NCBI GenBank assembly: GCA_963930775.1
Contig: OZ005693.1
Coordinates: forward strand, 9,732,006 to 9,796,005
Direction of reading: 5' to 3'
Source: Cliona cf. orientalis
Lineage: Eukaryota; Porifera; Demospongiae; Clionaida; Clionaidae
Length of the DNA: 64,000 nt
The notes under the pieces are model-generated. The model made no database searches and was not told the origin of the DNA. It saw only the letters and a program-made list of their open reading frames with translations. Position numbers and translations under genes: made by a program. The number at the start of each line of letters is the position of its first letter. Position 1 is the stretch's first letter. Positions 7,187 to 63,176 of this stretch are shown here, piece by piece.

Positions 7187-7217
<31 letters not shown>

Positions 7218-27000: not shown

Positions 27001-27118
27001 GATGCTGAGAGCTCCTTGGCTTTTGAGAAGTCGGGTCGAGAGGAGGAAGTGGAGAAACCGACGCAGACTATAGGGACTCAAGCGACTCCTGAACCACTGC
27101 AGGTGGGTGTATGTTGCC

Positions 27119-27149
<31 letters not shown>

Positions 27150-28130: not shown

Positions 28131-28908
28131 CTGATAGAGCATGCATAATAAAGTATAATTTGTCACGAAATTTGTGTACATTATTATTATTATTACTGTA
28201 TCTGTGTCGTATCAACTCAAAAAGTTTCTTGTTTCTGAAAGTATAGTGTTTATCTAAGTGATGGGATTGTGTTATTTCTGTCTGATGTGTATACTATACT
28301 GCATTATAATTGTGCACTGATACACTATTGTACAAAGAACTTGTGTTGTTCTATCTCAATCTTGTTTGTTTAACGCTTCAAGCTTCTGATCGTGGTTTAC
28401 AAAATCTGTGGTACCTTAAATCACCCAGTATGCTTTGGGGTAAAATTATTGATGATTTTGATTAGAAAGTGAGGTCTTGTATCAACAGAGGCCAGCCGCG
28501 GGAAGTATTACAAGTCAGACATGTACACACAAAATTATAATGTTTTGAGAAAAAGATTGTTGAAGTTTGGCACTAAAGTGAGTTTGGAACTATAGACTAG
28601 TGTGTGTTATTATCAACATGTACAATCATACAATGTACTGTTGATACAAACAATTAAACACCAGCATAATGATTATGATTATTAGATACAGTCATGCAGA
28701 TTCGATGTGTACACATTGTGGGTAAAATTTACTGTACACCCTAATCTCGTGATGTAGCCTGCTGCAATATCAGGAAATTGAAAGCAGTGGAAAGTTCGGA
28801 TTCGCTATTTATTGCGGTGCACGTAACTGCTTGGCACTTGTATTCATGATCAAATAATTTGCTGGTTTTATTATCTTGAAAGGGGCATAGCTGAGTTAGA
28901 GAGAAGCA
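28131..28908 (+). other. 3' UTR of KDM5 copy 3 and upstream region of lysozyme
   Basis: No gene seen. Homologous to 8191-8989, with the pre-ATG block GGGGCATAGCTGAGTTAGAGA retained directly before the lysozyme start. Confidence 0.5.
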
Positions 28909-29490
28909 ATGGCCACTTCTGTGCTACTTACCCTATCAGCTTTGTTGCTTGTTCAACTTGCCCATGTGAATTGCCTCAGCGGGACCTGCAATTCTTACGA
29001 GAGAGAAAAATGGAACGAAGGGTACAGGTCTCGTGTCTACATTGACACTGAGGGACACCCTACTGTAGGGATCGGATTCAACCTGGACAGATCTGATGCT
29101 AGGAGTCGCTTATCTGCGGTCGGTGCAAACTATGACAAAATTCGAGCTGGGACTGCAGCCCTGACTGATTATCAAATCAGGACCCTCTTCGATGATGACA
29201 TGGCAAATGCTGTTAGCTGTGCATCTTCTTGGCTTTATCAAGTCTGGGGACAGATGAGCACGGATCAAAAATCTGCTGTTGCGGATATGGCCTTCAATTT
29301 GGGCTGCTCTGGCGTGCGGAAGTTTAAGAACATGAAGTCTGCGCTTTTGAGGGGAGATTATGGTGGAGCAGCAGCTGAGATGAGGAATTCAAAATGGTGC
29401 AGGCAGGTCAAGTCACGCTGCGACCGCAACATTGCCTGCATGAAGGGAGGACTGGCGCTGCTGATGGAAATGTTTGGACTCAATCGTTGA
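28909..29490 (+). CDS. Secreted phage-type (GH24) lysozyme, intronless (193 aa)
   Basis: A near-copy of the protein at 8990: signal peptide MATSVLLTLSALLLVQLAHVNC, then the GH24 core. The triad is intact: Glu in KWNEGY, Asp in YIDTEG, Thr in PTVGIGF. Cysteines at CNSYE, CASSW, LGCSG, WCRQVKSRCDR and CMKGG match the paralog. It differs mainly in the loop after the catalytic Glu (RSRVY versus APHVY) and near the first active-site helix. Expected role: secreted muramidase, used for defence against or digestion of bacteria (inference). It shares its upstream block with the other two duplicated lysozymes. Confidence 0.9.
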   Translation: MATSVLLTLSALLLVQLAHVNCLSGTCNSYEREKWNEGYRSRVYIDTEGHPTVGIGFNLDRSDARSRLSAVGANYDKIRAGTAALTDYQIRTLFDDDMANAVSCASSWLYQVWGQMSTDQKSAVADMAFNLGCSGVRKFKNMKSALLRGDYGGAAAEMRNSKWCRQVKSRCDRNIACMKGGLALLMEMFGLNR

Positions 29491-29976: not shown

Positions 29977-30693
29977 AATAATAATAATAATATTGAGAAC
30001 TGCAAAATTGCAAAAACGAGGTGTTAGTAGCTAGCTAATACTGCATATTACATGCATGGATGAACGTCTTGCAAGATAATCATTACCCTTTCAGAATAAT
30101 TACTGTTATTGCAGTAGCCATATGTGCAGCATACCACATACGGCTGGAACTATAATAAAAAATAATATTATGTTAGATTTAGGTACGGTGTCTTGATGCA
30201 TGATTGCACCATGCATGTGGAGTCTATAATGTTGGCTATAGCAGATTTGGGAGTACTGTAGCTGCATGCATGGGCAATTTGGGACCTAGTGGGGTATATA
30301 CTGTGATATAATAATAATATTACACTAGTTGATGCTGGCATTGTCTCATGTTCGAATCATATGAGTATAGCTAGTTCTTACACAGTATAACAGTTATTTT
30401 ATTGCAGTAATTATTATCAACTGCATGTGGTTATCATAACTTTCAATACGTCAACTTATGTATAATGGTATGGATACACAAAAGCAACATGTTTTAAACT
30501 GACTGTTATTACAACATATTATTATGTCAACGTAAGAATCTAAGCTTGGGTTAGATAATGAAACTGTTTAACTTTATAGACAATCGTTGAACGATCAGCT
30601 CTATTGTACGTAGTGAACTGAGCAGTGTTAAAATTAATAAACCAATAGTGGTATTAATATTATTTTTTGTGACAATACGAGATTTTGAGCAAC
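29977..30693. other. Intergenic AT-rich region
   Basis: Continuation of the duplicated post-lysozyme sequence (GTATGGATACACAAAAGCAACATG), ending just before the next lysozyme. No coding exon seen. Confidence 0.45.
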
Positions 30694-31257
30694 ATGATAG
30701 TTCTGACATCAATAGTGACCATACTCTCTTACCAACTACTGAACATTGAGTGTAGACAGTCTCCAAACCTAGATATAGTCAATGGCACCTGTAACTCATT
30801 TGAGACAGAATCGCTGAATGAGGGAATCAGCCACTGTGCCTACAATGACCACATAGGCAGCCCCGTCATTGGAATCGGCTTCAACCTGGAAAAGCAAGGT
30901 GCCAGGCGGAAAATTGCTGATATTGGAGCTGACTATGAACTAGTACGGTATGGAAAAGCCTGTCTATCAGATGATCAAGTTAGGCAACTCTTTGACAATG
31001 AGATGGCAGCATCTATAAGATGTGCTTCGTCCTGGCTGGTTAGCGTGTGGTCTAAGATGAACGAAGAGAGGCAATCTGCTGTGGCTGATATGGCCTTTAA
31101 TATGGGGTGTACGAGGTTGAAGACGTTCAAGAACATGAAGGCAGCTTTGCAGAGACAGGATTACGAGAAGGCCGAGTATGAAATGAAGGCCTCTCGCTGG
31201 TGTAGACAGGTCAGGTCAAGATGTGACCGAGCCGCCAAGTGTATGCGGAAGACATAA
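30694..31257 (+). CDS. Diverged secreted GH24 lysozyme-like protein, intronless (187 aa)
   Basis: I start it at the ATG at 30694 because the upstream in-frame TTG at 30685 is not a normal eukaryotic start. The signal peptide is MIVLTSIVTILSYQLLNIEC. The core is GH24-like: Glu in SLNEGI and Asp in AYNDHIG are kept. The position of T4 Thr26 is Val (SPVIGIGF instead of PTVGIGF), a change expected to reduce or alter catalysis. The rest keeps the family helices (AVADMAFNMGC, WCRQVRSRCDRAAKCM). An extra cysteine in SHCAYND is shared with the lysozymes at 31843 and 32803 but not with the three duplicated ones. The frame is intact, so it is probably functional in some form. Confidence 0.85.
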   Translation: MIVLTSIVTILSYQLLNIECRQSPNLDIVNGTCNSFETESLNEGISHCAYNDHIGSPVIGIGFNLEKQGARRKIADIGADYELVRYGKACLSDDQVRQLFDNEMAASIRCASSWLVSVWSKMNEERQSAVADMAFNMGCTRLKTFKNMKAALQRQDYEKAEYEMKASRWCRQVRSRCDRAAKCMRKT

Positions 31258-31842
31258 TATTATTAGCTATTAAGGAAGTGTCCACCTATAGCTACATAAT
31301 AATAATATGAAATCTTAGTGAAAATGGTGGATACATACAGCATATAAATTATTAGTATACACACATCTGTCGCTTTATCATATATTACACACATCTGTCG
31401 CTTTATCAATAATGAAAATGATTCTGTAGCTACTATGTTTAACAAATCTATAATAATATTATGTACATGTTGCCTCATTCTTCTGATGCGCATGCTAGCT
31501 ATTTTTTAAGAGCCCAATCAAGACTAGTACAGAAACTACTTTTATAAAAATTAATCATAACATCCATGTTTTGAAATCCACTCTGCCCTAACTAGGGCAG
31601 TTTCATACGGTATCAACAAGTAGTGAAGACATAGCTATAATAATGATAGTATCAACACCCATATAATTACACATGTCATAACATGAAGCTATAGCTAGCT
31701 AGTATAAAACAAGGTCATACAAAAGTTCATGTACAGGAAGTAGAGTAGAATCTACTCCTGAGAAAGCCTATAAAAGAACATGTGACAAAAATTATTATTT
31801 AAGTGCAGGATCATAGGAAATCAACACACTTTTCAATAATCC
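31258..31842. other. Intergenic region
   Basis: No gene seen. It includes a short direct repeat (ACACACATCTGTCGCTTTATCA, near 31360 and 31385). A TATA-like stretch (CCTATAAAAGA, about 31769) lies upstream of the next lysozyme. Confidence 0.4.
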
Positions 31843-32415
31843 ATGCAGTGGTTTGTGGCTACAAAGATGAAATTCCTTGCTTCTCTGCTAATTTTGCTCA
31901 CTGCCACACTCTTGCTTTTCGGTGAAAGAGCTCATTCACTGAGTGGAAAGTGCAACTCGTACACACGTGAGAAACTCAACGAAGGCTACTTCAGGTGTGT
32001 GTACAATGATCCCCTCGGTATCCCTACCGTTGGAATTGGATTCAATTTGAGGAAATCTGGTGCTAGACAAAGAATCACCAACGTTGGTGCAAACTACGAC
32101 AAAATCCTCAGAAAGAGTGAATGCCTTGAAGCTTATCAGATTAAGAGGCTCTTTGATGATGATATGGCTGAAGCGGTCCAGTGTGCTTCTTCATGGCTCT
32201 CACAAGTGTGGTCTAGAATGGGGACAACCCGCCAATCAGCCATAGCAGACATGGCATTCAATTTGGGCTGCAGTCGGCTTAGGCAGTTTAAGAACATGAA
32301 AGCTGCGTTGGAGAGAGGGGACTACACAAAGGCTGCGGCTGAGATGAGGAATTCTCGTTGGTGTCGTCAGGTGAAGTCTCGCTGTGATCGGGACATCGAC
32401 TGTATGAAAAGCTGA
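31843..32415 (+). CDS. Secreted phage-type (GH24) lysozyme, intronless (190 or 182 aa)
   Basis: Two in-frame ATGs are possible, 31843 and 31867. The second (MKFLASLLILLTATLLLF) gives the more typical signal peptide. The triad is intact: Glu in KLNEGY, Asp in YNDPLG, Thr in PTVGIGF. The cysteine set includes the extra Cys in FRCVYND. C-terminal helices AIADMAFNLGC and WCRQVKSRCDRDIDCM are conserved, and the protein stops soon after CM, lacking the GGLALL tail of the 193-aa forms. It is single-exon and lies about 590 bp from its neighbour on the same strand. Peptidoglycan hydrolysis is expected from family and residues. Confidence 0.9.
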   Translation: MQWFVATKMKFLASLLILLTATLLLFGERAHSLSGKCNSYTREKLNEGYFRCVYNDPLGIPTVGIGFNLRKSGARQRITNVGANYDKILRKSECLEAYQIKRLFDDDMAEAVQCASSWLSQVWSRMGTTRQSAIADMAFNLGCSRLRQFKNMKAALERGDYTKAAAEMRNSRWCRQVKSRCDRDIDCMKS

Positions 32416-32619: not shown

Positions 32620-32802
32620 AAAAGGTTGTAGAGTACGCGCAGATCAGAATCAGCTGATTAAAACTTCCTACAACAAGAATAGGATGTAACTTTTTTTTCG
32701 CGACAATGCAGCGCTATGATATTTAATATGACTTTCAAGGTTGGGTGTACAATACAGTGACCTTTTGAGCGCGTATCGACAAGCAAGCCCAGCCCCACAA
32801 AG

Positions 32803-33324
32803 ATGCATTTTGCCACTCTACTCGTCCTGCTTTCAGCGTCCTTTGTCGCTCTAGAAGCCGGCGAATGCAATTCCTACGATCGCGAGAAGCTCAACGAAGG
32901 ATACTACAAATGCGTCTACAAGGATCCACTCGGAATTCCCACAGTCGGCGTAGGATTCAACCTCCAGAAATTCGGCGCCAGAGCAGAAATCGAGTCGGTC
33001 GGAGCTAACTACAACGCCGTACTGAACGGCAGTCAGTGCCTGGACGATAGCCAGATCGAACGCCTCTTCAACAAAGACATGGACAGCGCCGTGAGCTGCG
33101 CATCTTCGTGGGTCTCCAACTGGGGATCGTTGGGGTCAGGTCCTCAATCCGCCATCGCCGATATGGCATTCAATATGGGCTGCGCAACACTCCACGAGTT
33201 TACGAGCTTGAGAACCGCACTTGAGGACGAGGACTACAGCAAGGCCGCGGACGACATGAAGGCTTCCCTGTGGTGCAGACAGGTGGGATCTCGCTGTGAC
33301 CGTGATGTGGCTTGTATGCGTTAA
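32803..33324 (+). CDS. Secreted phage-type (GH24) lysozyme, intronless, GC-richer (173 aa)
   Basis: Signal peptide MHFATLLVLLSASFVALEAG, then the GH24 core with Glu in KLNEGY, Asp in YKDPLG and Thr in PTVGVGF. The cysteine pattern is CNSYD, KCVYKD, QCLDD, SCASSW, MGCATL, WCRQVGSRCDRDVACM. A loop differs from the paralogs (VSNWGSLGSGPQSA). The codon usage is visibly richer in C/G at third positions than in the other lysozymes, suggesting a different age, expression level or source. It is intronless and the last member of the array. Confidence 0.9.
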   Translation: MHFATLLVLLSASFVALEAGECNSYDREKLNEGYYKCVYKDPLGIPTVGVGFNLQKFGARAEIESVGANYNAVLNGSQCLDDSQIERLFNKDMDSAVSCASSWVSNWGSLGSGPQSAIADMAFNMGCATLHEFTSLRTALEDEDYSKAADDMKASLWCRQVGSRCDRDVACMR

Positions 33325-35051: not shown

Positions 35052-36424
35052 GGGCAAGTGGATTTAGCGGAAACGGACGAAAACGGAAACGAAAACGAAC
35101 GCGGAAACGAAAACGAAAAAGGAAATGGTCGTCAAGAAGGTTCCAAATGTGGTATAGGTCGACGATCTTGTAAGCCTACTTTATTATGCAAGATAGTGTG
35201 GTGCATTCAGAGACTTGTCACAGGCTCAAGGCAGGCTGCTCATGCTAGCTACATAAATTATATCGTGGGCCAACATATGCTGAAAGTTTGCCTGTCTGGA
35301 GTCTGGCAGGACCTAGCCTCGTTCCCAGGCCTTTCAAGAAGGGCCTGGGTACGAGGCTAGGCAGGACCTTTCTGGTCTTTGCATTTGGTAGCTATCTGAC
35401 AGTGAATTGAATGTCTATATAATTTGTCAGATGTTTAATAATCATATTAATTGATAAGCCAGGGGTGGGTAAGTACTATAGTAACATGCTGGTAGTGAAC
35501 TCATGTAAGTTGTATCTTGAAACTGAAAATTTAATGCAAATTATTGTAATTAGGGTTGTTACTGGTAGTTCATAAATATGGAAAGTCAGCATTTACACAC
35601 ATAAAATTATGTAGTTAATAATATATAGCTATTGTTGTTGGTTCCTTAGGTGCCCTTGATGTCTCTGGTGTCATTGGTGCCCTTGGTGTCTCTGGTGCCA
35701 TTCGGTGCCCCTGGTGTTCCTGGTGTCGTTGGTGCCTCTGGTGTCATTGGCCACTACCTAGCTTTAAGCTGAGCCTATATAGGGCCTGGGGATGAGGCTC
35801 AGGCTGGCCTACAGTCATCAGGGCCAGGGCCAGAGTTTGTAGATACCTTCAACTAAATACATGTAGCATAGATCAGTAGAGAACTACCAGATAGGTCAAA
35901 TATAATATTATATCTTATGTATCGGGTCAAGGTTCTGTAATATTATATAGCTGATCATGCAGTACTACATGTGCTGTTTAGCAAATAGGGGTGATAATGG
36001 AATGCGAGACTAGGGTAAAAAGTGTACTGATTGGCAAACGTGCATGTGAGACTCCAAGTGCTCCACATCACACGGCCCCGTTTTAGGATAGCTGCATAGC
36101 CAAGTCATACTTTTTCAGCCCAATATTGGAAAGCATTTACATAAGCTAGCTACCTGTGCCGGGCTAAATGCAAAGATCAGAAAGGTCCTGCCAGACTCCA
36201 GACAGGCAAATTTTCAGCGTATGTTAGCCCACGATATTATATAGCTCGAATGAGCAGCCTGTGACAAGTCTCTGGACTAATAAAGCTGACAAGGTCGTCG
36301 ACCTATACCACATTATTTTGTAACCTTCTTGACGACCATTTCCTTTTTCGTTTTCGTTTCCGTGTTCGTTTTCGCGTTCGTTTTCGTTTCCGTTTTCGTC
36401 CGTTTCCGCTAAATCCACTTGCCC
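35052..36424. mobile_element. Mutator-like long-TIR element (1373 bp) with 9-bp target duplication
   Basis: Inverted arms of about 250 bp start GGGCAAGTGGATTTAGCGGA and end with the inverse. They include a (CGAAAA)-rich stretch and TCTGGCAGGACC / GGTCCTGCCAGA. The flanks are identical 9-mers, GAATGGATA, at 35043-35051 and 36425-36433. The interior has a GGTGCC/GGTGTC minisatellite (about 35649-35750) and a small CTCGTTCCCAGGCC...GGGCCTGGGTACGAG palindrome. No transposase, so it is non-autonomous. Short arm ORFs (Asn/Glu/Gly-rich) are chance readings of the repeat. Confidence 0.85.
35649..35750. repeat. GGTGYC minisatellite
   Basis: Imperfect tandem units built on GGTGCC / GGTGTC with CTTG or CTCT spacers, inside the long-TIR element. 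Confidence 0.7.
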
Positions 36425-36426
36425 GA

Positions 36427-38251
36427 ATGGATACTATTATTACCATGGATAGCAACGAGTGCCCCGACGTTACGATTTACACGAGCGAACACGACACGGC
36501 GATGATCCAGGAAGAGAGCCAAACAGTGAACGACACGAACTGCGGAGGCTACAGCAGCTGCTCCTTCGTAAATGAACCGGATAGCGCATTGATTTGCCCT
36601 GTCTGCACCCACGTTCTGAGGGAACCTGAGCTAACGGGCTGCTGCGGTAACCATTTTTGCGCCTCGTGTCTCAAAGAGTGGGTGGACGTGGCTACTTCCG
36701 GACCGGATGGCAGTTGCCCCCTGTGCAGGGAGAAGAAATTCACTACATTTAGAGATAAGAAGACTGAGAGAGCTATCTTTGAATTACAGGTATTAAGCCA
36801 AATCAAACTAGATCTACTGGGTATTAAAAATGAGAAACAGACAATAATTATTTTGGCCTCCTCCCTGTTTTTATTCATTATTAATCGTCTCTGAGGAGAC
36901 ATAGAATAGCTGCTAGCTAGTAGCTAGCCCCGAATTCAACAATGCCTCGTTAATTAAGGAGTATACGAGATATTGACTGTCTATATAGCTGTAAAATTGA
37001 ATCCAATAATAACTAGTATTGTTTGTTTTACAGGTCAAATGCAAACACCACCTTTCTGGCTGCGCGTGGACTGGGGCACTCGGAAGCCTGGACAACCATC
37101 TCAAAACCACTTGCCCATGTGTCCTCTTGATGTGCTCCAACAACTGTGGGTGCATAGTTCAACGCTCTGAGCTTCAAAGCCACCTCACGGATGACTGCTA
37201 CCTTCGCACAGTCTCCTGCAAATTCTGCTCCCTCAAGGGTACTTTCGAATCCATCACAAAAGTTCACAATAATGAGTGTCTGATGATGCCTGTAGACTGT
37301 CCCAATAACTGCAACACGGAGTCGATTCTTCGTAAAGATCTCCCGGAACATTCTGAACTCTGTCCATTGGAAGAAGTGAAGTGTCCTTTTCACATCATCG
37401 GCTGTGAAATTGTTGCTGCTAGGATTGATGTACAGGATCATCTGGAAGAAGATCGAACTGTTCACATGCTGAATATGGCTAAGCATTTCCAACAAGTATG
37501 CCGTGAGATGATGGATCAACACATGCACAAGCTTAAAAAAGAGTTTGAGCAGAAATTTGACTCGATGAAGAAACTGGAGGCAGACATTGAATGCATGAAG
37601 TCCGATATGAAAAGCTTCAAAACCCACCAAATTGAATGTGATCACAGAAATAGTGACACGACCGACATGTTTACGAAACTTGTACGCCAACTCGCAACTG
37701 AATTGGTCTCTCCTAAAGCACACTCCAACATCATGGAGCTGCACTTGTTGGCACATGCGCGTCAATCATTGAGCGAACCTTTTCTACCCGTTACCTTCAA
37801 GATGGATAACTTTGAAGGGAAGAGGCTCCTTGAAAGTGTGTGGCAAAGCCCTTCATTTTACACAGAGCCCTTTGGCTATAAGCTTTGCCTGGTCGTTTAT
37901 CCGAATGGTTGCTGCAATGGAACTGGCACACATCTGTCGCTGTTTGTGCACGTGATGGCTGGGGAATTTGACCACCAAAATGATTGGCCTATCGATGTAG
38001 GGATAACTGTTGAGATTCCAAATCAGCTGGAAAATAAGGGGCACCACAGAGTTGACTGTAGTTTAACGAACGATCAGCCACTCCATATTAGGAAGAAGGT
38101 GCAGGGAAGCCCAGAAAGTGATGCAAAAGCTCGCAAAGGAAGTGGTAGGCCCCTATTCATTAGTCATTCAAAACTGAATTACTGTACACTTGGTGGTACT
38201 GGAAGTCGACAGTACTTGAAGAACAACTGTATTTATTTTACAGTGTATTAA
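36427..38251 (+). CDS. Divergent TRAF-like protein: RING, zinc fingers, coiled coil, MATH (526 aa)
   Basis: Exons 36427-36789 (363 nt, ends CAG|GTATTA) and 37034-38251 (after TTTTACAG) join in phase 0 to give 526 aa. Order: acidic N-terminus; RING at about 57-100 (CPVC...CCGNHFCASC...CPLC); TRAF zinc fingers to about 265 (C..H..C pairs such as HLKTTCPCVLLMC and HSELCPLEEVKC); a predicted coiled coil (HKLKKEFEQKFDSMKKLEAD); then MATH (about 375-526, PSFYTEPFGYKLC). It differs from the four tandem TRAFs in phase, length and coiled coil and is closer to classical trimeric TRAFs. The start ATG lies in the right copy of a transposon target duplication, and the ancestral promoter is on the other side of the element. 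A second ATG at 36445 is an alternative start. Confidence 0.85.
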
Positions 38252-39450: not shown

Positions 39451-41305
39451 TTATTTCCTCGTTGCGCTACTATCAGGTGCTGCGAGAGCTATGCGAAGCT
39501 CTTTGGCGACTTCTCCAAGTTGACTCTTTGTCAACAGATTAAGCAAACCATCCCAGCTCTTTGGGAATTGATCGGCATTGGGTAGCCCCACGGCATCCTC
39601 GAGCCACCTGCCAAATACCTCCCTCACACACTCGATATTATTATTGAAACGCCTCATAGCAATTTCATCAATGCATCCTGGTTCTTCATCTTCCAACCTA
39701 AGGCTTCTGGCAATCAGTTTCCACTTCTTGGCAGTCTTGGCGTAAACATGCAGCTTTTTCTTGTCACCGTCCCAAGTGATTTCTTCAAGAAGGCCTGTTG
39801 AGACTTCTTTGAGTCTACTGAAATCTAAAAAGGACATTAAAAAGCCATTTTAAGCACTATTAATTTTATTAATATAGGGGCAAGGCTGGCTTTTGTACTC
39901 TCTGCTCACTGCACAATTATTGTAAAGATCAAAAATAATTTAAATAATCAGAAATTCATGAATGGTCCAAGCACCTATTAGTAGCTATACCATCAGACAC
40001 TGTTACAGTACATGACTAAGCCTTAGTGCATGTTGAAACAACTTCAAATAATATTATATAGAGCTAATAGCTAACCTGGCTGAAGTGGTCCATGAGCCAT
40101 AGTATCATTCACATGATCCGGAGTAGCTAATCAGAATAATTTTATAAAAATAATCATTACACTACAACATCAGCCAGCTAGCTTCATGTTACTGTACCAG
40201 TACTTACTGGATTCTTTATCAGATCTTCCAGACAACACTTTTTCTGAAAAATGAATAATTGTGCACCTTATCAATATCATTGCAATGTAATACCGTATAG
40301 CTAGTGGGTAAATTTGGCGAGCATTAAAATTTAATTGCTCTTCATTGGTACATTGGTGAAGTTTAAATTTGGCGATTTGAATGCTTATCGCCATAGGCGC
40401 ATGTACATAAAAAATTAAGTTAAATTGGTGAGTTTTAATTATAATAATTATGGCAATCTATACTGAATTTGCCAAAATGCCAAATTAAAACCTTGCCATA
40501 GTTTCCCACCATACAATATTCAAATTGAGTGATTCTACATGCTAATTACTGTATAGTATAATGGCTTACTATACTTGGCACTCAAAAAATCCAAATCGAT
40601 CCTTGAAGGTTCTGTGACCACATTTCCATCTCGCTTATGAATACCGTACAAGGCTGCTTTCAGCTCTTTAGGGAGGGATGTGGACTGTTCGTCCAAATAC
40701 TCTTTGTTAGAGTAACCCTGTGTCAGCCAACTCTTCTTGCACCTATAATATTTATTATAATAGAAGGCAACATTGGGCTCTTCCATTTAATAAGCATACA
40801 CCCCCTATGGATGACTGCTAACGAATGTCCAGGGGGGTATTTTGACGCTTGTCCAGGGGGGTAAAACACTGATTTTAATGAAGGGAAGGGGGCACTTTGC
40901 TCCTTTAGGTGATTTCCCTTCCATAAATTAATGCATTAATTTGTGTCCAGGGGGAACAAAACTTGATTTGATTAATAATCCAGGAGGAGTAGTAATGTTC
41001 TTAATTATATCTTGGGGGAACAGTGACCTAATTAACGACTGTCTAGGGGGGATGGTTGCTAGTTAATTATGTCCAGGGATTAAATTTTCCTCACTAGTCA
41101 TCCATAGGGGGTGTATGGCTATTAAATGGAATAGCCCATTAATTTTTAATAGCTAACTATAGCTAGCAGCTGTATAATGTCATGATTCCAAACAATGTGC
41201 CTAATTAGCTAATCATGGTTATTATAATTATTATGGTCCAGCAGCTGATACACAAACAGGAAGTACACCATTGGCTATAGCTTCATGAAACACATTCTAA
41301 AAATT

Positions 41306-41349
<44 letters not shown>

Positions 41350-44300
41350 TGGGTCGGTTAAGTCAATATTTATGAGTTAGAGTGGTGGTAGATCTATATA
41401 ATAGCCAGGTACACTATCTATGGTTATAATATTACCAGTAGTGCATAACACTGTCAGAATCGTAGTCTGTAGCTCCACCATCCATTAGACCATCCTTACA
41501 CTGCCAGTCAACAAATCTTCCTCTCATGTCCGGATCCTTCTTCATCTTGTCCTCATCAATATAATCCTTGATCCAACTCCAAAAATCAGAACGCTGATGC
41601 TCATGTCCCAAGCCCAACGCATGGCCAAACTCATGAACAATCAGGTGCTCTTGGTATTTCTCGTCTGAACTCCTGAGGTCAAGGTACACTTTAGTTGGCC
41701 CTTCACCTTCAACATGGCCAATGGCAGATTTGTTGTCTCCATCCTCTTTATGATAAAAGGTTCCATCATCAAATCCATGCATGCATGCATGCAATACTGT
41801 AACACATTAATATTTGCATGCTTACCATTCAGTTCTACTATGATATCTGGACGTTTATCCTCTTTTTCAAATCTTGGAATGTGGTTGGATCCCTCACTAA
41901 CAACACCATTAGACCACCTGTTGGCACACTCCATGAACTTGGTCTGTGGAACGTCCCAACGATCAAGTAAATGACGGTTCCTTATCTGTATTTTGAGCAC
42001 TTCTATTCTCCACAATCTACTTTCATACGGCAGGGCAGCTGGGGCAAAGCCTGGGCCAGCGGTTGAAGCAGCAGGCGGTGATTTCATCTTTGGTGTAAAC
42101 TCCATAGTACACAAGGCATGAGGTACCTGCAGCACGGAATAATTATAGTATTCTAAAATAAAACATGTAGCTACATCTATTTTGCCATCATTTTCCACTC
42201 TTACCTCTGGATCTATCAGTTTGGTTCTTTTATTCACATTTGGAGCTTCCTCTTCAGACACTCCACCAGTAGGTGGTCCTGAGGAAAAGAATGCATATTT
42301 TATAGTAATATTATTATTATAGATCATATCATCAGTCAAAAGCAAACAGCCAGTTTTGATTGATCAATTAGACTGATTACAGGGGTGGATCTATAGCTAG
42401 CTCACTGCAAAAACAAAAGGGTTAGTTTAACCCATCTTAGGTTACCTGAATTGCACTCACAAGCTAAAAGAATGCAGTTCATGACCAGCCATGATTATGG
42501 AATGTGAATGAAAGTATTCCTAGCTTTGATCATAATAACATACTTGAAGCCAGGCTATTCACATATCTAAGGCTACCTTATTGTAATTATTATAGTTGGC
42601 ACAGGGACATGAAGGTGAATGACATTGAGTGAAGTGGTTGCAATTGGTAATTGAAGTAAGTGAAGTGGTAATTACCAGAAGCACTGCAAATACTCTTGCT
42701 CTACTTGGCTCTCCGTAGCAATGCACGTCTCAAGAAACTATGTGCAATGGGTACACATTATGATTATATATATTCCAAAATCATGCATTCATATGGATGA
42801 CTGTGTATGCATTGTTCATCAGTGCAACTCAGGTAACCAAAGTTGGGTTAAAGTAGCTAACCCTTTTCTTTTTGCATATATATATATATATATATAGGAG
42901 TTGAGGAAGGGGGGGGGGGCACAAAGAGCCCCTCAAAATTGATCAAACTTTGCATGCTTCCTAATTGCCATAATCTTCTTCTTTGAGCTGCTTTCTCATA
43001 GCAAAATGCACTTTCAACTAAGTTTCAAACTTCTGAGCAAAGCTTGGTATGTTTTTATATAGAAGATATTATTATAATAGCAGCAAGGGTGCTCACATTA
43101 GTGAGCTATGCCTGGAGGTGAATCAAATAAAGACTAAGATAGGCACAGGCACAATGATGGGTCATAGTCCACTGAGAATGCCCAATGGTAGCTAGGCCCA
43201 CTCCAGAAAAAAAGACAGCCTGCCACAACTTAGACTTGAACCACAGATCCCTCGCTTGCTGGGCGAGCATAGTTCGAGTCCCAATGCCTATAGATGTCCA
43301 TATTGGGCGATTTTTGTGGGATCCGATTATAATAATATTACCCCTTGCGCATGCGCGCGGGGTTACGGTAATGAGCACATGCAGGCAGATCTTGTTGCTA
43401 TACCTTGTGGCTTAAATTCTTGCAAAAAATAAAGCCTATTGATAAATAGATCTCAGTAGTAAATTTGGCTGCTGTCTTAGCCAATATTGGTGTCGTGGTA
43501 CAGCATTCAAAGATTCTCTGCTACAGGTGCATTAGCTACTACTGTGGCTATAAACCTTCATCTAAACGTCTTGCCCAGGTAGCTACTAGCGATACAAACT
43601 CATTGTCTGCATGGCCCAGGATTAGTATGGCTACATCAGCATAGTTGAGTCACTTTTCAGCCCAAGTGTGGAAGGCGAATAGGCCTACTTGTCAACCTAT
43701 AGCTACCACAAAATTTAATGTTCACTTTTGACGATCTTATCCATTTTGTTTCCATGTTCGTTTTCGTCCACTAGCGCTTCTGCTTGCATAGGAATAGCTA
43801 CAGCAAAGTGGACAGACCAGAGGGAACTGTCTACGGCGTGACCATGCAGCCTCTTGCGAAGGGGCTGGTGGTTACCCCAGACTACAGCATGCTAGGCCAG
43901 GTGCAGTCTGCAGGCATAGATAATAATTATTATGATCTATGCTGCAGGTGAGGTCAATTGCGCTGGATGGGAAGTTCACTGCTGAAGGGAGGGGGTACTG
44001 GCCCCGGACCCCTGTGCTCCCCCTGGATCTGCCACTGATTAGAAACCATGATATCTATGTCTTCATCACTGAAGATCCTCTGTGGCAACAATGAGTATCA
44101 TATCACCATTGGTGTCGCCAAGGGGGTGCATGTGGGTTCATTTGCACCCAATTCATGCACCTGTGCACTCATCCTATGCATGTGTAATTTTGTTGTTTAC
44201 CTATAGCCTGTCACAGTATGCACTGTTTCACTACACTGTCACAGCCAGTGATGTAACATGTCATGTATATTAATAATAATGTCACTATAATATTATACAT

Positions 44301-54103: not shown

Positions 54104-54883
54104 TAGATGCATAGTAACTATAGTCAATTGGCACTTATTTCTAGAGTGTATGTACAGTAGTACTATAATATAATTCTAAGTATACCATTATTCATACTTT
54201 TATAGCACTGAAAACAAGAAGTATTGATACTTAATTATGGCATATATATCTTAAAATGAACAGATGGTACTAAAATGTAGCACTTAGTATGTATTTACTA
54301 AAATATACATGCATGGTGCTTATAATCAGTCAATGTATGCACTAATTTAAAGTATATAAAATTAATATTTAGTTTCTCTCTTTAACTTAAGTATACAGAG
54401 TTATTTATAAGCACTATACCTACTTAACATGAGTGAAAATGGCTAAATACAACTAATATTACCTTTGCATACTTAAAATAAGTATATAGCATATACTTAA
54501 AAATGGTAGGTACTTGTGCTTATTTATAGTATACAGCACTATAATCAAGTCTAAAGTTTAATTCTAAGCACTATTCATGCTGAAGTACCTCGTTTAGATA
54601 TACTTGCACTAAAAAGTAGAAAATACACTACTTAATTATAGCACTTTACTCTTCAGGTGAGTAGATGGTACTAGAAATCAGTATTGTGACTAATTATTAG
54701 TGCCATTTTCTTATAATAAGAGTGTTTACTATAAATATATATGTATAGTACTTATTACTAGTCAATATATGCACTAATTTATAGTATGTATTCTTAATTT
54801 TTAGCCTTATCCCTTTGATTTAAGTATATGGAACTATATTTAAGCAATATATATGCTTAAAGTGAGTATATATGGCTAAATAA

Positions 54884-57800
54884 GTGTCAATTTCTACATC
54901 TACAAAAAATGCCAGCAATCAGTTAGATCAAACAATCTCTGTACCCAATCATGTGAATGCTACTGCAGCTTCTTTTTTAGGAGAGAGCAACGCTGCATCA
55001 ACCAATCCATAATAGCAAACAAAGGTCATGTAGGTGTATTTTATTTTAATGTACGTAGTCTTTTACCTAAAATAGATAATTTAAGAGTAATTTGTTCTGT
55101 GTATAAACCGTGTGTTGTATGTTTGGTTGAGACATGGCTTGACAGTTCAATTGATGATGTAGAAATCAGTATTCAGGGCTACACAATTGTTAGGCTGGAC
55201 CGCTCCAGACATGGTGGTGGCATCCTTATTTATGTTTCAACATACTTATCACATTCCACCATGTTCAATGGTAGCCCTGAGTTTGAGTTTATTGTAATTT
55301 CTTTATCTAATTGTAAGTATACATCTTCAAGTCCGGATTTTTATCTTGCTCTTTTCTATCGCCCCCCAAATTCAAATATTTCTTTGCTTGACACTTTATT
55401 TTCTACTTTGTGCAACCTAAATCCTATTATTTTTGTAAATTTTTGTATTATTGGCGACTTTAACATTAATTTTTTATCACCCCCTACTTATTTATATGAT
55501 AAGCTTATTTATCTCAAGTCATATCTGAGCCTACCAGAGTTGTTAGTAATTCATCATCCCTCATTGATTTAGCCTTTGTTTCATCCCTTGGTATGGTGCA
55601 GTTGTGTGAAACACTTCCACCATTGGCAAATTCGGACCACCTTGGAGTCCACCTTGAACTGTCAGCCAGAATACGCAAGAGTACACCCAAACCACATGTA
55701 AGAAGGATTTGGCGATACAACTATGCAGATTTTGATAAAGCTATGGAGTTACTTGATGAAATTGAATGGGAGTCCCTATTAAATGAGAGTGATGTGGACC
55801 TGTATTGGTCTGCACTGAAAAACTATTTTCTGCAAGTAATGGAAGTCTGCATTCCTAATGCTATAGTTAAGGTGAAAAAGGATCTTCCATGGCTTAACCA
55901 AGACATCAAGAAAGCCATACAAAAGCGTGATTCCTTGTATCGTAGACTGAAACGTAGCGGTACACCTGCAAACCGTGGTAAATATAACACAATGCGAAAC
56001 AGAGTCGTTTATCTTATGCGTGAGAGTAAGAGGAACTTTTTCATTAAGCTAAATCAGGCAACTACAAAAGAATTTTGGAAACTACTGAAGCTTCTTAACC
56101 ATAACAATGACTCCACAATACCTACACTAGAGGACAGGGGCACAAGCATTGATTCAAGCATTGATAAGGCAAATGCGCTAAATCGATTCTTCTATAGCTG
56201 TTTTAATAACAATTGTCCCGTTCTGTCTGAGTGCTCGTCTGTTTTCGAACTGGAAGCTGAATACTGCCCTCAATACCTATTATCTACTGAGGAGTCGGTG
56301 TTTGATTTATTGGCTAATCTCGACGCGACCAAGTCAACAGGCTGTGACGGAATATCGCCGAAAATGTTGAAATCTACTGCAAGTAGTATTGCTTTGTTAC
56401 TCTCTAAGCTCATAAATCTGTCCATCTCTACAGGAAAATTCCCCAAAGAGTGGAAACTGGCCCGAGTTGTTCCAATCCCAAAAGGAAAAAGTAAGAGCTT
56501 GCTAGGTGGGTATAGACCCATATCAATACTACCTGTTGTGACCAAAATAATTGAAAGACATGTTGGAGATCTCATTCTTGCTCACCTCTCAAATTATGCT
56601 CCCATTTCACCACGCCAGTGGGGATTTATGACACACCGTTCATCTGTATCAGCTTTAATTAAAGTATTTGATAACTGGGCACAAGCACTTGATGAAGGGC
56701 ATGAAATTTGTGTGATATTCTTTGATGTACGCAAGGCTTTTGACCGGGTACCTCATCAATTACTTCTACGACAGATGCAGCATATGAACCTCAATCCTTA
56801 CCTTTTGAGATGGCTTCATGACTACCTATCAAATAGATCACAGTTTGTTGCAGTCGAAGGTGAGAAGTCGAGCACTCTCCCAGTAATATCGGGGGTTCCA
56901 CAGGGCAGTGTGTTAGGGCCATTACTCTTTATTACATATATTAATGATGTTGTCACAGTGGTCTCACCGGAAAGTGAAATAAACATGTTTGCTGATGATA
57001 TTGCACTATATAGAGTTATTAAGGCACCGGGTGATTATACGGCACTGCAGGGAGATGTAGATTCGATTGGAGCAATTGTAACTAGCAAGCATCTTGAATT
57101 CAATACTGATAAATGTCGAATGATGGTTATATCAAGAAAGCGTTCAAATTTAATACCTTCTCCCCCACTGTACCTTAATGGAAGTCAGCTTGACCAAGTG
57201 AAGAGCTATAAGTACTTGGGAGTGACTATCACTTCTAATCTCTCATGGCTACCCCACATTACATCACTCTGCAACAAAACCAGAAGATTGGTGGGAATGG
57301 TATACAGGAAGTTTTACCAGCACTCAGATAGTCGCACCCTTCTCAAACTCTATCTGTCCATCATTAGACCGCACATTGAATATGCATCACCTGTGTGGGA
57401 TCCATATCACAAGACTGAAATTGAAGCTATAGAAAGCGTTCAAAAATTTGCCTTGAAAATGTGTCTCAAGTCATGGAGTTCAAATTATGAACAATTACTA
57501 TTGGAAGCCAGACTACCAACACTCAAAGTGAGAAGATCAGCACTAAGTTTGGGTCACCTATACAAGATTATCAACAAGCTCACATATTATCCGGAACCTC
57601 CAATAATTCAAAGAAAGATCCCTTACAGGAACAGGGGTATTAACGCTAACACTGTCTGCGTACCACATGCAACTACTACTGCATATCAACAGTCCTTCTA
57701 TCCAAAAACTCTCTCTTTGTGGAATTCGCTTCCTGAAGGTATGACAAGCTGTACTAGCATTACTGGTTTTAAGCACCACCTGAAACAATCAAACTTACAA

Positions 57801-57955
57801 ATTAATTAGTATTATATATTATTACAATGTCATATATTTTAAATCTCATTTATTTCTATGTAGACATGCATTTAAATTAGCTATATAGCTACTTTGTGTG
57901 TCTTCTGCATATTGTGCAGTAAATTAGTATAAACAAAAAAAAAAAAAAAAATTAC
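54884..57955 (+). mobile_element. Non-LTR retrotransposon (CR1/L2/Jockey-like), nested in CACTA-like element
   Basis: Contains an AP-endonuclease part and a reverse transcriptase, ends in a poly-A tract (about 57936-57953) and interrupts the AAGTA-type subterminal repeats, which resume right after it. The 5' end is estimated where the subterminal repeat stops (about 54884). No clear target duplication was found by eye. No ORF1 is present, so it is probably 5'-truncated. Confidence 0.7.
55027..57809 (+). pseudogene. LINE endonuclease-reverse transcriptase polyprotein, one frameshift
   Basis: Endonuclease residues are readable upstream of the first Met (FNVRSLLPKIDNL; VETWLDSSIDDVEI; GGGILIYVS; FYRPPNS; IIGDFNINF). 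The frame breaks near 55535: LSLP must shift to TRVVSNSSSLIDLAFVSS. RT follows in the second frame (55593-57809, 738 aa from its Met): YRPISILPVVTKIIERHV, QWGFMTHRSSVSALI, FFDVRKAFDRVPH, GVPQGSVLGPLLF and the FADD catalytic motif (NMFADDIALY). The C-terminal part has YLSIIRPHIEYASPVWDP and WNSLP, as in CR1/L2/Jockey-type elements. With a single frameshift and otherwise intact domains, the insertion is young. Confidence 0.8.
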
Positions 57956-58662: not shown

Positions 58663-61600
58663 TTAATTAGTGCCTGGATACTTATCTCTTTCGAGATCAT
58701 TGGCCATTGCCGCAAAATTAACTGTCTTGGCTCGTAAGGCCTCTATGAGAGTGTGCCATGTTCTTGGCTTTGAGTTCTGCTCATCAGGCTTGTACACTCC
58801 TCTCAACCAGTGAGTCAATGTTTCACGTATGCAATCATCATCTGACCCCCTCATTGTAGCCAATGTACCAGCATCTACACCGATTTTTCTCCCAATGTCA
58901 TTCCACCTAGCTCTTGCACCCCAGAGAGCGTCTAGGACACCATCCAGATCATTGATTGTCAAAATAATGTCTGCAATATAATTGTTAATGGTATCAACAG
59001 TTTAATAGAAAATTTGACAAAATTAATCATTCCCAAGAACATAATAGCAAAAGTCTCCCACTGCACAGTTTAACTATGTCTCAGTGGAAGTGCATTATTG
59101 TTTATCAGCTAGCTCAAGTTTTCAATGGCTTACATGCATGTGCAAGGAGGCTACAGCCCTGTGGCATAGCTATATAGGCAAATGCTGCAAGCTATATAGG
59201 CCCCCCTATGAAAAGGGTCTGGCTTGTGAGACTAGTACAATGTCATAATACATACAGAGTGCTAGCTAGCACTTGTGCGCATGGGCAGACTGAGCACTTG
59301 ATTGTTAATAACTAACCAGTCTGAGGTGATGGTCCATGAGCCATAGCACCATTATCATGGTCTGTAGTAATTTGAACAATAATAATTATTATAATATTAC
59401 AATCAGCAGCAACATCAGCTATATGGCTACTTACCGGTTTCCTCACTATCAGGAACTATTCTAGAATCTGATCTTCCAGTCTCTTCTTTCTTGGTAGACT
59501 CAAGCTTGGCAGACTGTTTACCTGGCTGCACTTTTTCTAAAATTAATAATGCATGGGTGGATAAAAATTGTGCCATAAATTATTAATAGTGTACAAGGCA
59601 TTATAATTTTGATGATACTCAAGTTAAGTGATTCTGCGTGCTAATTATAGCTACTGCATGCATGACATTATAAGTATAGAAAATGGCTTACTATACTTGG
59701 CACTCAAAAAATCCAAATCAATCCTTGAAGGTTCTGTGACCACATTTCCATCTCGCTCGTGAACACCATACAAGACTCGTTTTAGATCTTCAGAGAGGAA
59801 TTTGGACTGTTTGTCCAAATATTCTTTGCTAGAGTAGCCCTTTGTTAGCCAACTCTTCTTACACCTGCACATGTACAAAAGGCAACATTAATACATAATA
59901 ATGCAGTGATTCCAGCTAATGAATCAACATACAAACAAGAAATGCAAACCATACGTTAACTACAATGTCATGGGAGAATGTTCTATCCCCTGAATCTCAA
60001 ATCACAATTATTACAAGTGAATTGGCTAAGTAGCTATACATCTCGGGATTTTGGACATCCTGACCAGATATGCATGCAGTCAGTAGAATAATATTATTTA
60101 ATTTACCAATAGTGCATAACACTACCAGAGTCATAGGGTGTAGCTCCACCATCCATTAGACCATCCTTACACTGCCAGTCAACAAATCTTCCTCTCATGT
60201 CCGGATCCTTCTTCATCTTGTTTTCATCAATATAATCTTCGATCCAATTCCAAAAATCAGAACGCTGATGTTCATGTCCCAAGCCCAATGCATGGCCAAA
60301 CTCATGGACAATCAGGTGCTCTTGGTAGTCCTTGTCCTGATACCCAAGGTAAAGGTACATTTGAGTTGGCCCTTCACCATCAACATGGCCAATGGCAGAT
60401 TTATTCTCTCCTTTCTCTTTTGGGTGAAAAGGTTCCATCAAATCTATGTAACACATACTAAATTTCAAAAAGCTTACCATTCAATTCTACAACGATATCT
60501 GGTTCTTCATTGTCAATGGCCATTTCAAATCTTGGAATGTGGTTGGAGCCCTCACTGACAGCACCATCAGACCACCTGTTGGCACACTCCATGAATTTGC
60601 CCAAATTAACCCTCCAACGACTAAGTAAATGTTTGTTCTTTATCTGTACTTTGAGTTCTTTCTTCCTCCACAATCTACTTTCATACGGCAGGGCAGCTGG
60701 GGCAAAGCCTGGATCAGCAGTTGAAGCAGCAGGCGGTGAATCCATCTTTGGTGTCAGCTCCATAGTACACAACACACGAGGTACCTGCAGCACGGAATAA
60801 TATTTATATTCTATACATGTACTAATGCTATCATCACAATGTACATCAGATTCTGTTTCGTCATCATGCTCCACTCTTTCCTCTGCATCTGTCAGTTTCA
60901 TTCTTTTATTGCCCTTTTCCTGTAGAAGATATTAAAGTTTGATACATTATTATATATCTGCATAATCATAATTACATGCTCCTTGCCATAGCCTCGTCTC
61001 CAGGCCGCTCGCACGTTTTCAATGTTGCACGCCGAGGGACGAGGCTAGCCTTGCCATATTCTTTTCTTAACATTCATATGAAATGCTGATACCCTAAGTC
61101 CTTGGAAATCTTGCCCAGGGTAGCTACATGAATATCATTCATTGTACAGCCAGTGCTCTCACCTCCAGACTCTGTATGATGATCATAATGTTCTTGCGAG
61201 GACCAGTCTTAAAACCCATTTTTTCTAGTTCTTCTATAGATAGATCCTTAAAAGCAGCTCCATTGATCTCTTCCTCTGGAATTAAAAGTATGAAGCTATA
61301 ATAATAATAACAATAATATTATAGGAGGAGAAATATCCCCTCCTCCACAACCACTTCAAAAAGAATCTAGGGGGTTGAGCCCCCTCATTATTGAATGGGT
61401 AAACAAAGAAGCCTCAAAGCTATTATTAGGAAGCCTCAAAAGATTTCAAAAGATTTCTTTGAGAGTCCAATACTCCCCTGGGGGAGCACCCCCCCCCCCC
61501 CCCCCCCCCCCCAACTTTTGCACAGCATCCTTCGCCCTTGTAATAGGGAACTCATAAAATCAATATTCACACCCCCATGTATGCAGATTGTGATCCGCTG

Positions 61601-63176
61601 ATGCACTCACCAACTAGTTTGTCCTTTAGCTGTTGATTCAGTGATAGACTCCTCTTCTCGAGTTCTTGAGACAACCATTCAACAAGGTCATGTGGAGAAA
61701 GATTATCAGAGAAACTCAGTGTCTTCTTACTCAGTCTGGCAGGAGCTAGACAAAATGAATCATAATTATTAACAAAATATTACGGTACTATGATCACAGT
61801 TACTGTAGTCATAATATTATAATATTCACATGATAACTGATTGTGAGCATATAACTAATACTAGGATGCACTTTCAACATTCATAAACCGATCTCATCTG
61901 ATCATTAGAAATGTGTACTTACATTAATATTAATACGTGTATATCAAACTTATATAGGATTTCCATAACACATTCTGTCATGCATGATCATACCAGTCTG
62001 ATTGTTGACCGTGAAAGGGGCTTCCTCTTTAGGCACTCCATTAGAATCACCAGTACTAGGTGGTGGTCCTGCATGAGGAAATGGGATTTTTTTAGCAATG
62101 TCATGCAGTGATGTCATGAATATATTATAATAGTTTCTAATCTACCAAAACAGGATGATCAAATTTCCTATAGCAACAATGAATAGCACAAAAATTTAAT
62201 AATAGCATGCACTAATCTATGAATAAAGGCTCAACCATAATAATAATTATAGTCATATGCCATACCAATATTATTCAGCAGTGAATCAGCACCAATGAGA
62301 ATCAATCACCATTTTTGTACATACCAATACAAATAGTTGCCGTACAAGGTAAAAATAGATTACGGTATTATTATAGCAGACCTTTGCTGCATCATTATGC
62401 GAACTTAGCTAAAAATAATTATTAATAGCTATCTGAGCTACTACCTTTGAATTCTTTACCTGTAACAGTTGTGGCTATGGGCAGTTTTCGTAGCCTCGTT
62501 TCCAAGTTACGATGACCTCCCAGCCTTCCTATGGCGTCTGCTACTCTCCCCCATGTGCGTTCAGACTCCGCTGTGTTACGATACCAGTACGTGACAATTT
62601 CAGATCTTTGTCGTTGAACATCATTTCTGTGATCACTATCGATGCGATCCAAGACTATGGAGTCGATCCCAAGTTGCAGACCAAAATTATAAAGGTTAGT
62701 AATCTCCTCCAACTCACTCAAAATATTTGCTTCTGTACCTGAGTAGTTATATAGTCATGAATTTAGTAATCTTAGCCTGGCCCATTGATCATCTCACAAT
62801 GACGCTATCATACTTAGATCTATAGATAGCTAGTTATTACATTCATAAACAAACGGCCCGGCATACACATGCAGTGAATGCTCAGAGTATTCTTAGGTGA
62901 TACATGCACACTATACTGATCTACTTGTACAGATCTGGGGTCTATGACTTTCATAAGTCACTGAATGCATGCACAGATCTCAACAGATCTAGACTCATGA
63001 TCGAGCCGAGACACTGATATAATCATTGAATATTAATTATTAGCTCTACCAAACTTCAGATCAGGTAAACTTTAGTGGCCCTAGCACTCACATTTTACTA
63101 ATAATACGGATGGTTGGCTATTAAAATAATGTTTATCAGCACTAGTCTCGAACTTACACGAGGTTCTCGCGGCCAT
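58663..63176 (-). CDS. Death / SAM / astacin-like metalloprotease / Death fusion protein (675 aa)
   Basis: Eleven exons (complement): 63158-63176, 62460-62738, 61994-62068, 61611-61745, 61163-61275, 60478-60919, 60107-60443, 59692-59864, 59435-59536, 59317-59361, 58663-58970. Lengths and phases join to 2028 nt, 675 aa, starting MAARTSC. Order: Death domain about 12-95 (LGIDSIVLDRIDSDHR, VTYWYRN, TWGRVADAIGRLG); Pro-rich linker; SAM about 137-205 (HDLVEWLSQELEK, INGAAFKDLSIEELEKMGF, GPRKNIMIII); linker; metalloprotease with HEFGHALGLGHE (astacin HExxHxxGxxHE), HQRSDFWNWIEDYIDE and SVMHYW; a Lys/Ser linker; Death domain about 580-675 (RWNDIGRKIG, CIRETLTHWLRG, TWHTLIEAL). No signal peptide, pro-segment or membrane span is seen. 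A regulated cytosolic protease recruited through death-fold/SAM contacts is inferred. Paralog of 39451-46434, from which the N-terminal modules differ. Confidence 0.8.
60990..61048. repeat. Small palindrome TAGCCTCGTCTCCAGG...GGGACGAGGCTA
   Basis: Intronic. The same motif family, CTCGTNCCCAGGCC...GGGCCTGGGNACGAGG, recurs at 13870-13912, 34303-34336 and 35313-35361, so it is a short foldback repeat family. Confidence 0.55.
61489..61512. repeat. Poly-C tract in intron
   Basis: About 24 C in an intron of the Death/SAM/metalloprotease gene, inside a stretch rich in CCCCTGGGGG-like sequence (61330-61560) that may be a small element. Confidence 0.5.

Follow-up and report, generated by a model that had tools for sequence, protein, structure and literature searches.

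Death and SAM domains are intracellular modules able to oligomerise, and a locus of the sponge Cliona cf. orientalis raises the question of whether such modules have been joined to a zinc metalloprotease, what kind of enzyme this would be, and how it might be controlled. The locus lies in a stretch of 64,000 nucleotides (GenBank assembly GCA_963930775.1, contig OZ005693.1, positions 9,732,006 to 9,796,005 of the forward strand), referred to here as the window, and positions without a contig label are window positions. We found that the minus strand of the window carries a gene whose modelled product runs Death - SAM - linker - metzincin (HEFGHALGLGHE, SVMHY) - Death. Judged from gene models and profiles, this architecture is very probably real, a grade that the weakness of several SAM-like exons lowers slightly. 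At the level of the gene family, the fusion of Death or SAM domains to the protease is real as far as sequence comparison can tell, and the complete order of the window gene is supported piecewise.

The spliced model extends from 63176 to 58663 on the minus strand, with 12 exons and 11 GT-AG introns in consistent phases, and encodes a protein of 655 residues terminated by a stop codon. The original prediction had located the gene at these coordinates on this strand, which is correct, and had read eleven exons in consistent phases; the phases hold, but twelve exons are needed. Its domain order, with a HExxHxxGxxHE protease and an SVMHY Met-turn between Death - SAM and Death, is upheld by the model and by the profiles. 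The features of the gene are as follows.

63158..63176, minus strand: exon 1 (MAARTS), proposed start codon at 63176, donor CGT/GTAAGT
62460..62738, minus strand: exon 2, N-terminal Death domain (residues about 8-92), from profiles and gene model
61994..62068, minus strand: exon 3, linker, from the gene model
61611..61745, minus strand: exon 4, first half of the SAM domain, from profiles and gene model
61163..61275, minus strand: exon 5, second half of the SAM domain, phase-0 donor GAG/GTGAGA
60845..60919, minus strand: exon 6, charged linker, from the gene model, with a related stretch in loci L021/L022
60478..60784, minus strand: exon 7, N-terminal half of the catalytic domain preceded by a linker containing Cys238 (LCTMEL), from the gene model
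60767..60769, minus strand: codon of Cys238, candidate cysteine-switch residue, from linker comparison and gene model
60107..60443 (start alternatively 60416), minus strand: exon 8, catalytic core with HEFGHALGLGHEHQR and SVMHY, from profile and gene model
60262..60306, minus strand: zinc motif H381-E382-xx-H385-xxGxx-H391-E392 and HQR, from the gene model
60109..60123, minus strand: Met-turn SVMHY (M444, Y446), from the gene model
59692..59864, minus strand: exon 9, C-terminal part of the catalytic region, from homologous exons and gene model
59435..59536, minus strand: exon 10, linker, from the gene model
59317..59361, minus strand: exon 11, linker, from the gene model
58663..58970, minus strand: exon 12, C-terminal Death domain and stop, from profiles and gene model

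The start exon, at 19 nt, is the least certain part of this model. Intron 7 is either 34 nt long, which is unusually short (acceptor 60443), or about 61 nt (acceptor 60416); both choices stay in frame, and the second drops 9 residues that have no counterpart in the aligned proteins P0001 and P0002 or in locus L031 (L denotes genomic stretches or loci, C contigs and P database proteins). For exon 9, an earlier donor (A/GTGCCA) was replaced by A/GTAAGC at 59692, which keeps the same phase, is the better donor and fits the length of the homologous exons.

We assessed the domains with Pfam, using for the full chain a 651-residue version of the protein that is 4 residues shorter at the exon-9 linker. 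Astacin was recognised at residues 350-447 (40.8 bits, cut-off 22.5) and SAM_1 at residues 143-206 (25.5 bits, above the curated cut-off of 23); the SAM domain scanned alone scored 31.1 bits for SAM_2 and 30.6 bits for SAM_1. The C-terminal Death domain reached 15.3-19.1 bits (19.1 on the full chain) against a PF00531 cut-off of 22.6, and the N-terminal one was unlisted in the full-chain scan, its exon alone giving 13.1 bits (E 0.11). Thus, when Death, SAM and M12A profiles were applied, as the original prediction had proposed, SAM and Astacin exceeded their cut-offs, while the two Death ends were recovered only with the help of relatives. Three paralogs have C-terminal Death exons that score above the cut-off (L031, 33.5 bits; L025, 29.8; L035, 25.1), and those of four others fall below it (L037, 19.7; L023, 18.8; L022, 14.1; L032, 12.8). 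Among 22 aligned copies of the N-terminal Death type, 18 match Pfam Death at E <= 1, the best at 6.6e-9. Profile A2, at positions about 322-403 of 411, matches PDB Death chains of PIDD, TNFR1, Fas and RIPK1; the N-terminal Death profile matches FADD (6.6e-4) and PIDD, and the SAM profile matches PDB SAM chains. A hidden Markov model (HMM) built solely from C-terminal Death exons recognised the N-terminal Death of the window gene at E 1e-7. In leave-out tests, with sequences at least 50% identical purged from the training set, the C-terminal Death of the window gene was recovered at 4.8e-10 and its SAM at 1.1e-20.

The catalytic exon of the window gene belongs to a multi-copy family. At E <= 1e-12 it finds at least 22 loci in the 217-Mb genome, a lower bound because only the best candidates were scored: six in a stretch of about 115 kb on C5, including the two inside the window, ten on C8, two on C1, and one each on C2, C3, C4 and C9. 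The second member inside the window is a partial model.

39487..42126, minus strand: second family member, with protease exons within 42126-40570 and a Death-like exon at 39762-39487

We surveyed the flanks of 20 of the 22 loci, all except the one on C2 and the broken copy at C5:9806190. At ten of them, the protease is preceded on its own strand by SAM-like exons: the window gene, L023, L026, L031, L032 (second SAM half alone), L035, L037 and three loci at C8:174-181k (L025/L030). A Death domain follows downstream at nine (the window gene, L022, L023, L025, L030, L031, L032, L035 and L037), and eight loci have both; the C8:178k locus has one further downstream Death, which is ambiguous and perhaps the N-terminal Death of the next gene. 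In L023 and L026, whose catalytic exons are roughly half identical to that of the window gene, the SAM exons are likewise entered in phase 1 and the protease exon then in phase 0. At the end of the second SAM exon, a GT donor is readable in 9 of 10 sequences (by eye, several of them weak), the exception being L039, which runs into a stop. L040 holds an N-terminal Death and the first SAM half in a single open frame of 163 codons, and each junction of the window gene has a counterpart in another copy. When paralogs were aligned with splicing under loose settings, numerous very small chance exons appeared outside the protease and SAM regions, and only exons that were recurrent in the same phase or matched a profile were kept. 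The N-terminal modules differ among members, including Death, SAM, a weak CARD match and, by eye, a possible ubiquitin-like stretch. The recurring core of the family, as the models have it, is a SAM or death-fold module, the protease and a Death domain. All eight pairs tested gave dN/dS below 1 (0.23-0.76), with 0.35-0.67 for the catalytic exons in three pairs.

Two loci on C5 deserve mention for the same family or its modules. At C5:9806190-9806518, a copy of the catalytic exon appears as two overlapping frame pieces, one with an internal TGA, and is probably a broken member. In L039 (C5:9796006-9803000), Death and SAM exons at 1436-1711 and 533-909 on the minus strand end in a frame that stops right after the SAM, forming a stand-alone Death-SAM adaptor-like gene; this frame lies about 1.3 kb upstream of the start exon of the window gene.

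Relatives also occur outside this genome. A profile search returned 85 proteins, among which Halichondria panicea was the sole animal named, with seven genes annotated as uncharacterized proteins (LOC135332882, 883 and 884, LOC135335465, 603, 654 and 838). Their products are 33-38% identical to the family query over the protease and have variable N-terminal modules. P0007 (LOC135332882) reads SAM-like - protease - Death, with its N-terminal SAM at E 9.5e-7 and its C-terminal Death at 1.9e-9 by the HMMs of the Cliona genome. P0009 (LOC135335465) reads Death-like - protease - Death; its C-terminal Death exceeds the Pfam cut-off (24.9 bits), and its N-terminal domain matches the N-terminal Death profile with an hhalign probability of 88%, while scoring just 15.1 bits for Pfam Death. 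A C-terminal Death was found in five of the seven proteins at E <= 2.4e-6 with the Cliona HMM (P0002, P0003, P0007, P0009 and P0015), and also in P0001, a database match without an organism name (E 8e-11). At the start of P0011 lies a weak match to CARD (14.3 bits, under the cut-off). The search for the same order in other sponges, suggested by the original prediction, recovered these two related arrangements, but the complete order with this type of N-terminal Death was seen in the window gene only.

Is the catalytic domain that of an astacin? The available part of PMC9848320 defines astacins (M12A) by HExxHxxGxxH with a family-specific glutamate, ExxRxDRD after the third histidine, and a SIMHY Met-turn with a tyrosine ligand, together with a signal peptide, a pro-segment with an FxGDI aspartate switch, and two or three disulfides in the catalytic domain. 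Like the astacins, including crayfish astacin, meprins and BMP1, the window family has HExxHxxGxxHE with the family glutamate (H381-E392 in the window protein), a Met-turn with tyrosine (SVMHY, 60123-60109) and the Pfam Astacin match. Across the 20 loci, HEFGHxLGLxHE is kept in all and SxMHY in 19. Unlike them, it carries fused Death and SAM domains and has HQRSDFW rather than xxRxDRD: the window gene reads EHQRSDFW, with minor variants at other family loci, whereas RxDR is present at 15 of 15 sites found in L001-L020, where the motif played no part in choosing them. No signal peptide is apparent by reading in the modelled N-terminus, MAARTSCTEANIL, which leads into the Death domain, with the start exon uncertain; the 655 residues contain no FxGDI pro-motif; and an alignment of 15 family members has no cysteine column common to half or more of them. 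The 11 classical astacins compared from this genome (chosen by the RxDR motif for this comparison and for the tree) share three invariant cysteines, and the family has no counterpart columns. With two features of the definition present and four absent, we label the enzyme astacin-like, not astacin.

In a tree of 75 sequences and 210 columns, rooted on the classical astacins, the 15 members form one clade (FastTree support 0.92) separate from those 11 sequences. The mean distances of the family to the classical sequences (4.97) and to bacterial, fungal and unnamed matches (4.80) are about equal, and since the tree is rooted on classical astacins it cannot tell which group is nearer; horizontal transfer is not claimed. 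Against PDB, the family profile matches myroilysin best (E 1.4e-17) and crayfish astacin at 1.1e-5. These comparisons place the catalytic domain in its own metzincin clade, outside the classical secreted astacins of the same genome. The motif and Met-turn of the original prediction's astacin-like protease stand. An ordinary animal astacin that has merely lost its signal peptide was ruled out by motif, cysteines and tree.

Myroilysin, a bacterial M12A enzyme with a cysteine switch and without Death or SAM, also resembles the family in having a cysteine upstream of the catalytic domain. In most members, the linker before the first catalytic strand holds a Cys followed by Thr, Ser or Ile, as in LCTMEL (window), PLCTTAD, IGCTMNF, WCTTIDH, WCIAHRP, YCTDSLG and FCTTDDE, and the rest of the linker is variable by eye. 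The cysteine lies 19-44 residues before the first catalytic Trp. Of the 17 genomic linkers recovered, 16 have it (the exception is L032; those of L034 and two loci in L028 were not recovered), as do 10 of 13 database proteins with a recovered first strand, including six of six from H. panicea (the P0015 linker was not recovered). P0001, P0012 and P0017 have none, and P0012 and P0017 begin within 30 residues of the first strand. A cysteine ahead of a metzincin domain, with myroilysin as the nearest structure, suggests a cysteine switch, and Cys238 of the window protein is tentatively predicted to serve as one, at somewhat less than even odds.

Several observations weigh against the architecture and the scheme built on it. 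Both Death matches of the window protein, taken alone, are under the Pfam cut-off, and a protein-database search with residues 1-225 found no relative at E <= 0.01; the N-terminal half may either evolve fast or have poor database coverage. The HMMs of the flank survey were seeded with pieces of the same loci, so that the survey shows order and its detection is not independent. Within the limited stretches covered (downstream flanks often 2.5-3 kb), 10 of the 20 loci have no SAM and 10 or 11 no downstream Death. Leave-out E values were just 0.014-0.064 for four SAM-like sequences (C8, C4 and C1 loci), Pfam SAM_2 matched only 4 of 10 SAM sequences at E <= 1, and the second SAM half of L025 is apparently frame-shifted. 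The complete order with this type of N-terminal Death was found at the window gene only: for four of the five other C5 copies of that Death, the next downstream protease exon is 14-40 kb away, and the fifth is the neighbour that stops after its SAM. Among the database proteins, the SAM of P0007 is absent from the Pfam listing at E <= 0.5, P0010 has no C-terminal Death, that of P0011 is weak (E 0.09), and P0001 has a hydrophobic, signal-like N-terminus and no linker Cys. The linker-cysteine counts come from related sequences and from a permissive pattern, a C with T, S, I or W as the next residue at any place in the 75 upstream residues (for proteins, 80 residues and T, S or I). L035, finally, has SVMHN and has lost the zinc tyrosine.

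Could two adjacent genes have been misread as one, a Death-SAM adaptor (exons 1-5, terminating a few codons after the SAM) and a protease-Death gene starting at exon 6 or 7? The upstream neighbour is just such a stand-alone frame, the SAM exon of the window gene would reach a stop 7 codons on if unspliced, and half of the family loci have no upstream SAM. However, a good phase-0 donor closes the second SAM exon, and the exons that follow open in phase 0; a donor is readable at the same point in eight other sequences, though some are weak; SAM-like exons precede the protease at the other half of the loci; and P0007 joins SAM-like and protease parts in a single chain. We consider two genes unlikely. 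If the domains are joined, the protease fold might still be a pseudo-enzyme or scaffold that binds while the Death and SAM parts signal. The tyrosine missing from the sister locus L035 and the interrupted copy at C5:9806190-9806518 would fit this, but the conserved zinc motif at all 20 loci, the Met-turn at 19 and the dN/dS of the catalytic exons in three pairs speak for a working enzyme, and a pseudo-enzyme seems distinctly improbable.

A further alternative is that the protein takes the route of classical astacins, by secretion or delivery to phagosomes, and that its start exons were missed; the Death-like bundles would then serve other contacts. Animal astacins are described with signal peptides in the available part of PMC9848320, and P0001 opens with a hydrophobic stretch. 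Nevertheless, P0007, P0009 and P0010 begin at SAM-like or death-like parts, and the catalytic domain has no shared cysteines. Death and SAM are, moreover, intracellular modules in general, and secretion appears very improbable. The window product is instead likely to be an intracellular protease, presumably cytosolic, in agreement with the cytosolic-type protease of the original prediction; the model has neither a signal-like N-terminus nor an FxGDI pro-motif.

How might a protease with a single fused chain of Death, SAM and Death be controlled? We infer that it is latent. In the proposed mechanism, the enzyme would be produced with Cys238 of the linker ligating the catalytic zinc as a cysteine switch; the Death and SAM modules would recruit it to assemblies that upstream sensors, or Death-SAM adaptors such as the upstream neighbour, had nucleated; clustering or cleavage of the linker would take the cysteine off the zinc; and the freed enzyme would cleave intracellular substrates, akin to the activation of initiator caspases by death-fold assembly. 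Because Death and SAM domains oligomerise and a latent protease would lie between them, the simplest reading is an effector recruited and activated by assembly. A first look gave 1292 candidate Death domains in the genome, and all 150 of the 150 scored match at E <= 0.1; with so many Death domains and a Death-SAM-only frame nearby, potential partners are plentiful. Activation driven by assembly is slightly favoured. The whole explanation, a soluble intracellular latent signalling metzincin of an expanded family, set between Death/SAM and Death modules, is likewise given a little better than an even chance.

Known systems offer partial parallels. Initiator caspases, the PIDDosome and the DISC couple Death, DED and CARD domains with caspases, and MALT1 couples Death with a paracaspase. 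Like these, the window family has a death-fold recruitment module and a protease in one chain (here by gene model and by the named H. panicea proteins) and an adaptor-like Death-SAM gene nearby; unlike them, it is a zinc metzincin, not a cysteine protease, it includes SAM, and its assembly is predicted. The death-fold-coupled proteases known to us from animals all belong to the cysteine class. For the window product, the inflammasome- or PIDDosome-like role in immunity or cell death that the original prediction suggested, with a metalloprotease in place of the caspase, may be envisaged. In bacteria, according to the available part of PMC8195603, bacterial Death-like (bDLD) domains are fused to trypsin effectors, and a related system has an inactive zincin-like domain; there, too, a protease effector is fused to an assembly domain, but the domain families and the catalytic class are others. 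The original prediction knew of no described family with this order, and the literature searched, which covered few subscription journals, yielded no description of a Death-metzincin fusion, judged by titles, the openings of abstracts and the available text, including among papers naming both astacin and death domain. None appears in the available parts of PMC8195603, PMC7159879, PMC11788884, PMC12345144, PMC9798719, PMC12909245, PMC6040629 or PMC9848320.

The rest of the window and one other contig hold further features. Four TRAF-like genes (zf-TRAF and MATH) lie at 540-1571, 2111-3145, 22065-23117 and 36265-38251, the last with a RING exon before it. Five open frames that resemble one another, all having a hydrophobic stretch at the N-terminus, are found at 8981-9571, 28900-29490, 30673-31257, 31840-32415 and 32761-33324, and both of the two scanned match Pfam Phage_lysozyme. 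Near-identical repeated gene pieces with a PHD finger (one scanned) at 5723-8190, 16675-17292 and 25349-28130 are a sign of recent segmental duplication. Adjoining the protease gene, retrotransposon-like frames at 54880-57809 include a reverse transcriptase (RVT_1, 118.5 bits). At C18:7645530-7662923, tandem domains of the N-terminal Death type, mostly within open frames of 130-480 codons, possibly represent another Death gene family.

More broadly, and as a speculation that we regard as rather doubtful, sponges may have death-fold-wired signalling in which a metzincin zymogen takes the place of a caspase as effector: a redox- and zinc-sensitive metallo-inflammasome whose paralogs carry interchangeable Death, SAM and CARD-like N-terminal modules and a cysteine switch, and are activated by Death/SAM assembly or by loss of the thiol-zinc bond. 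The family would provide a tractable test bed, as both an on/off cysteine and assembly domains are predicted in one protease. If true, early animals would have experimented with a second catalytic class, multi-copy here and also present in Halichondria panicea, for proteolysis triggered by assembly inside the cell.

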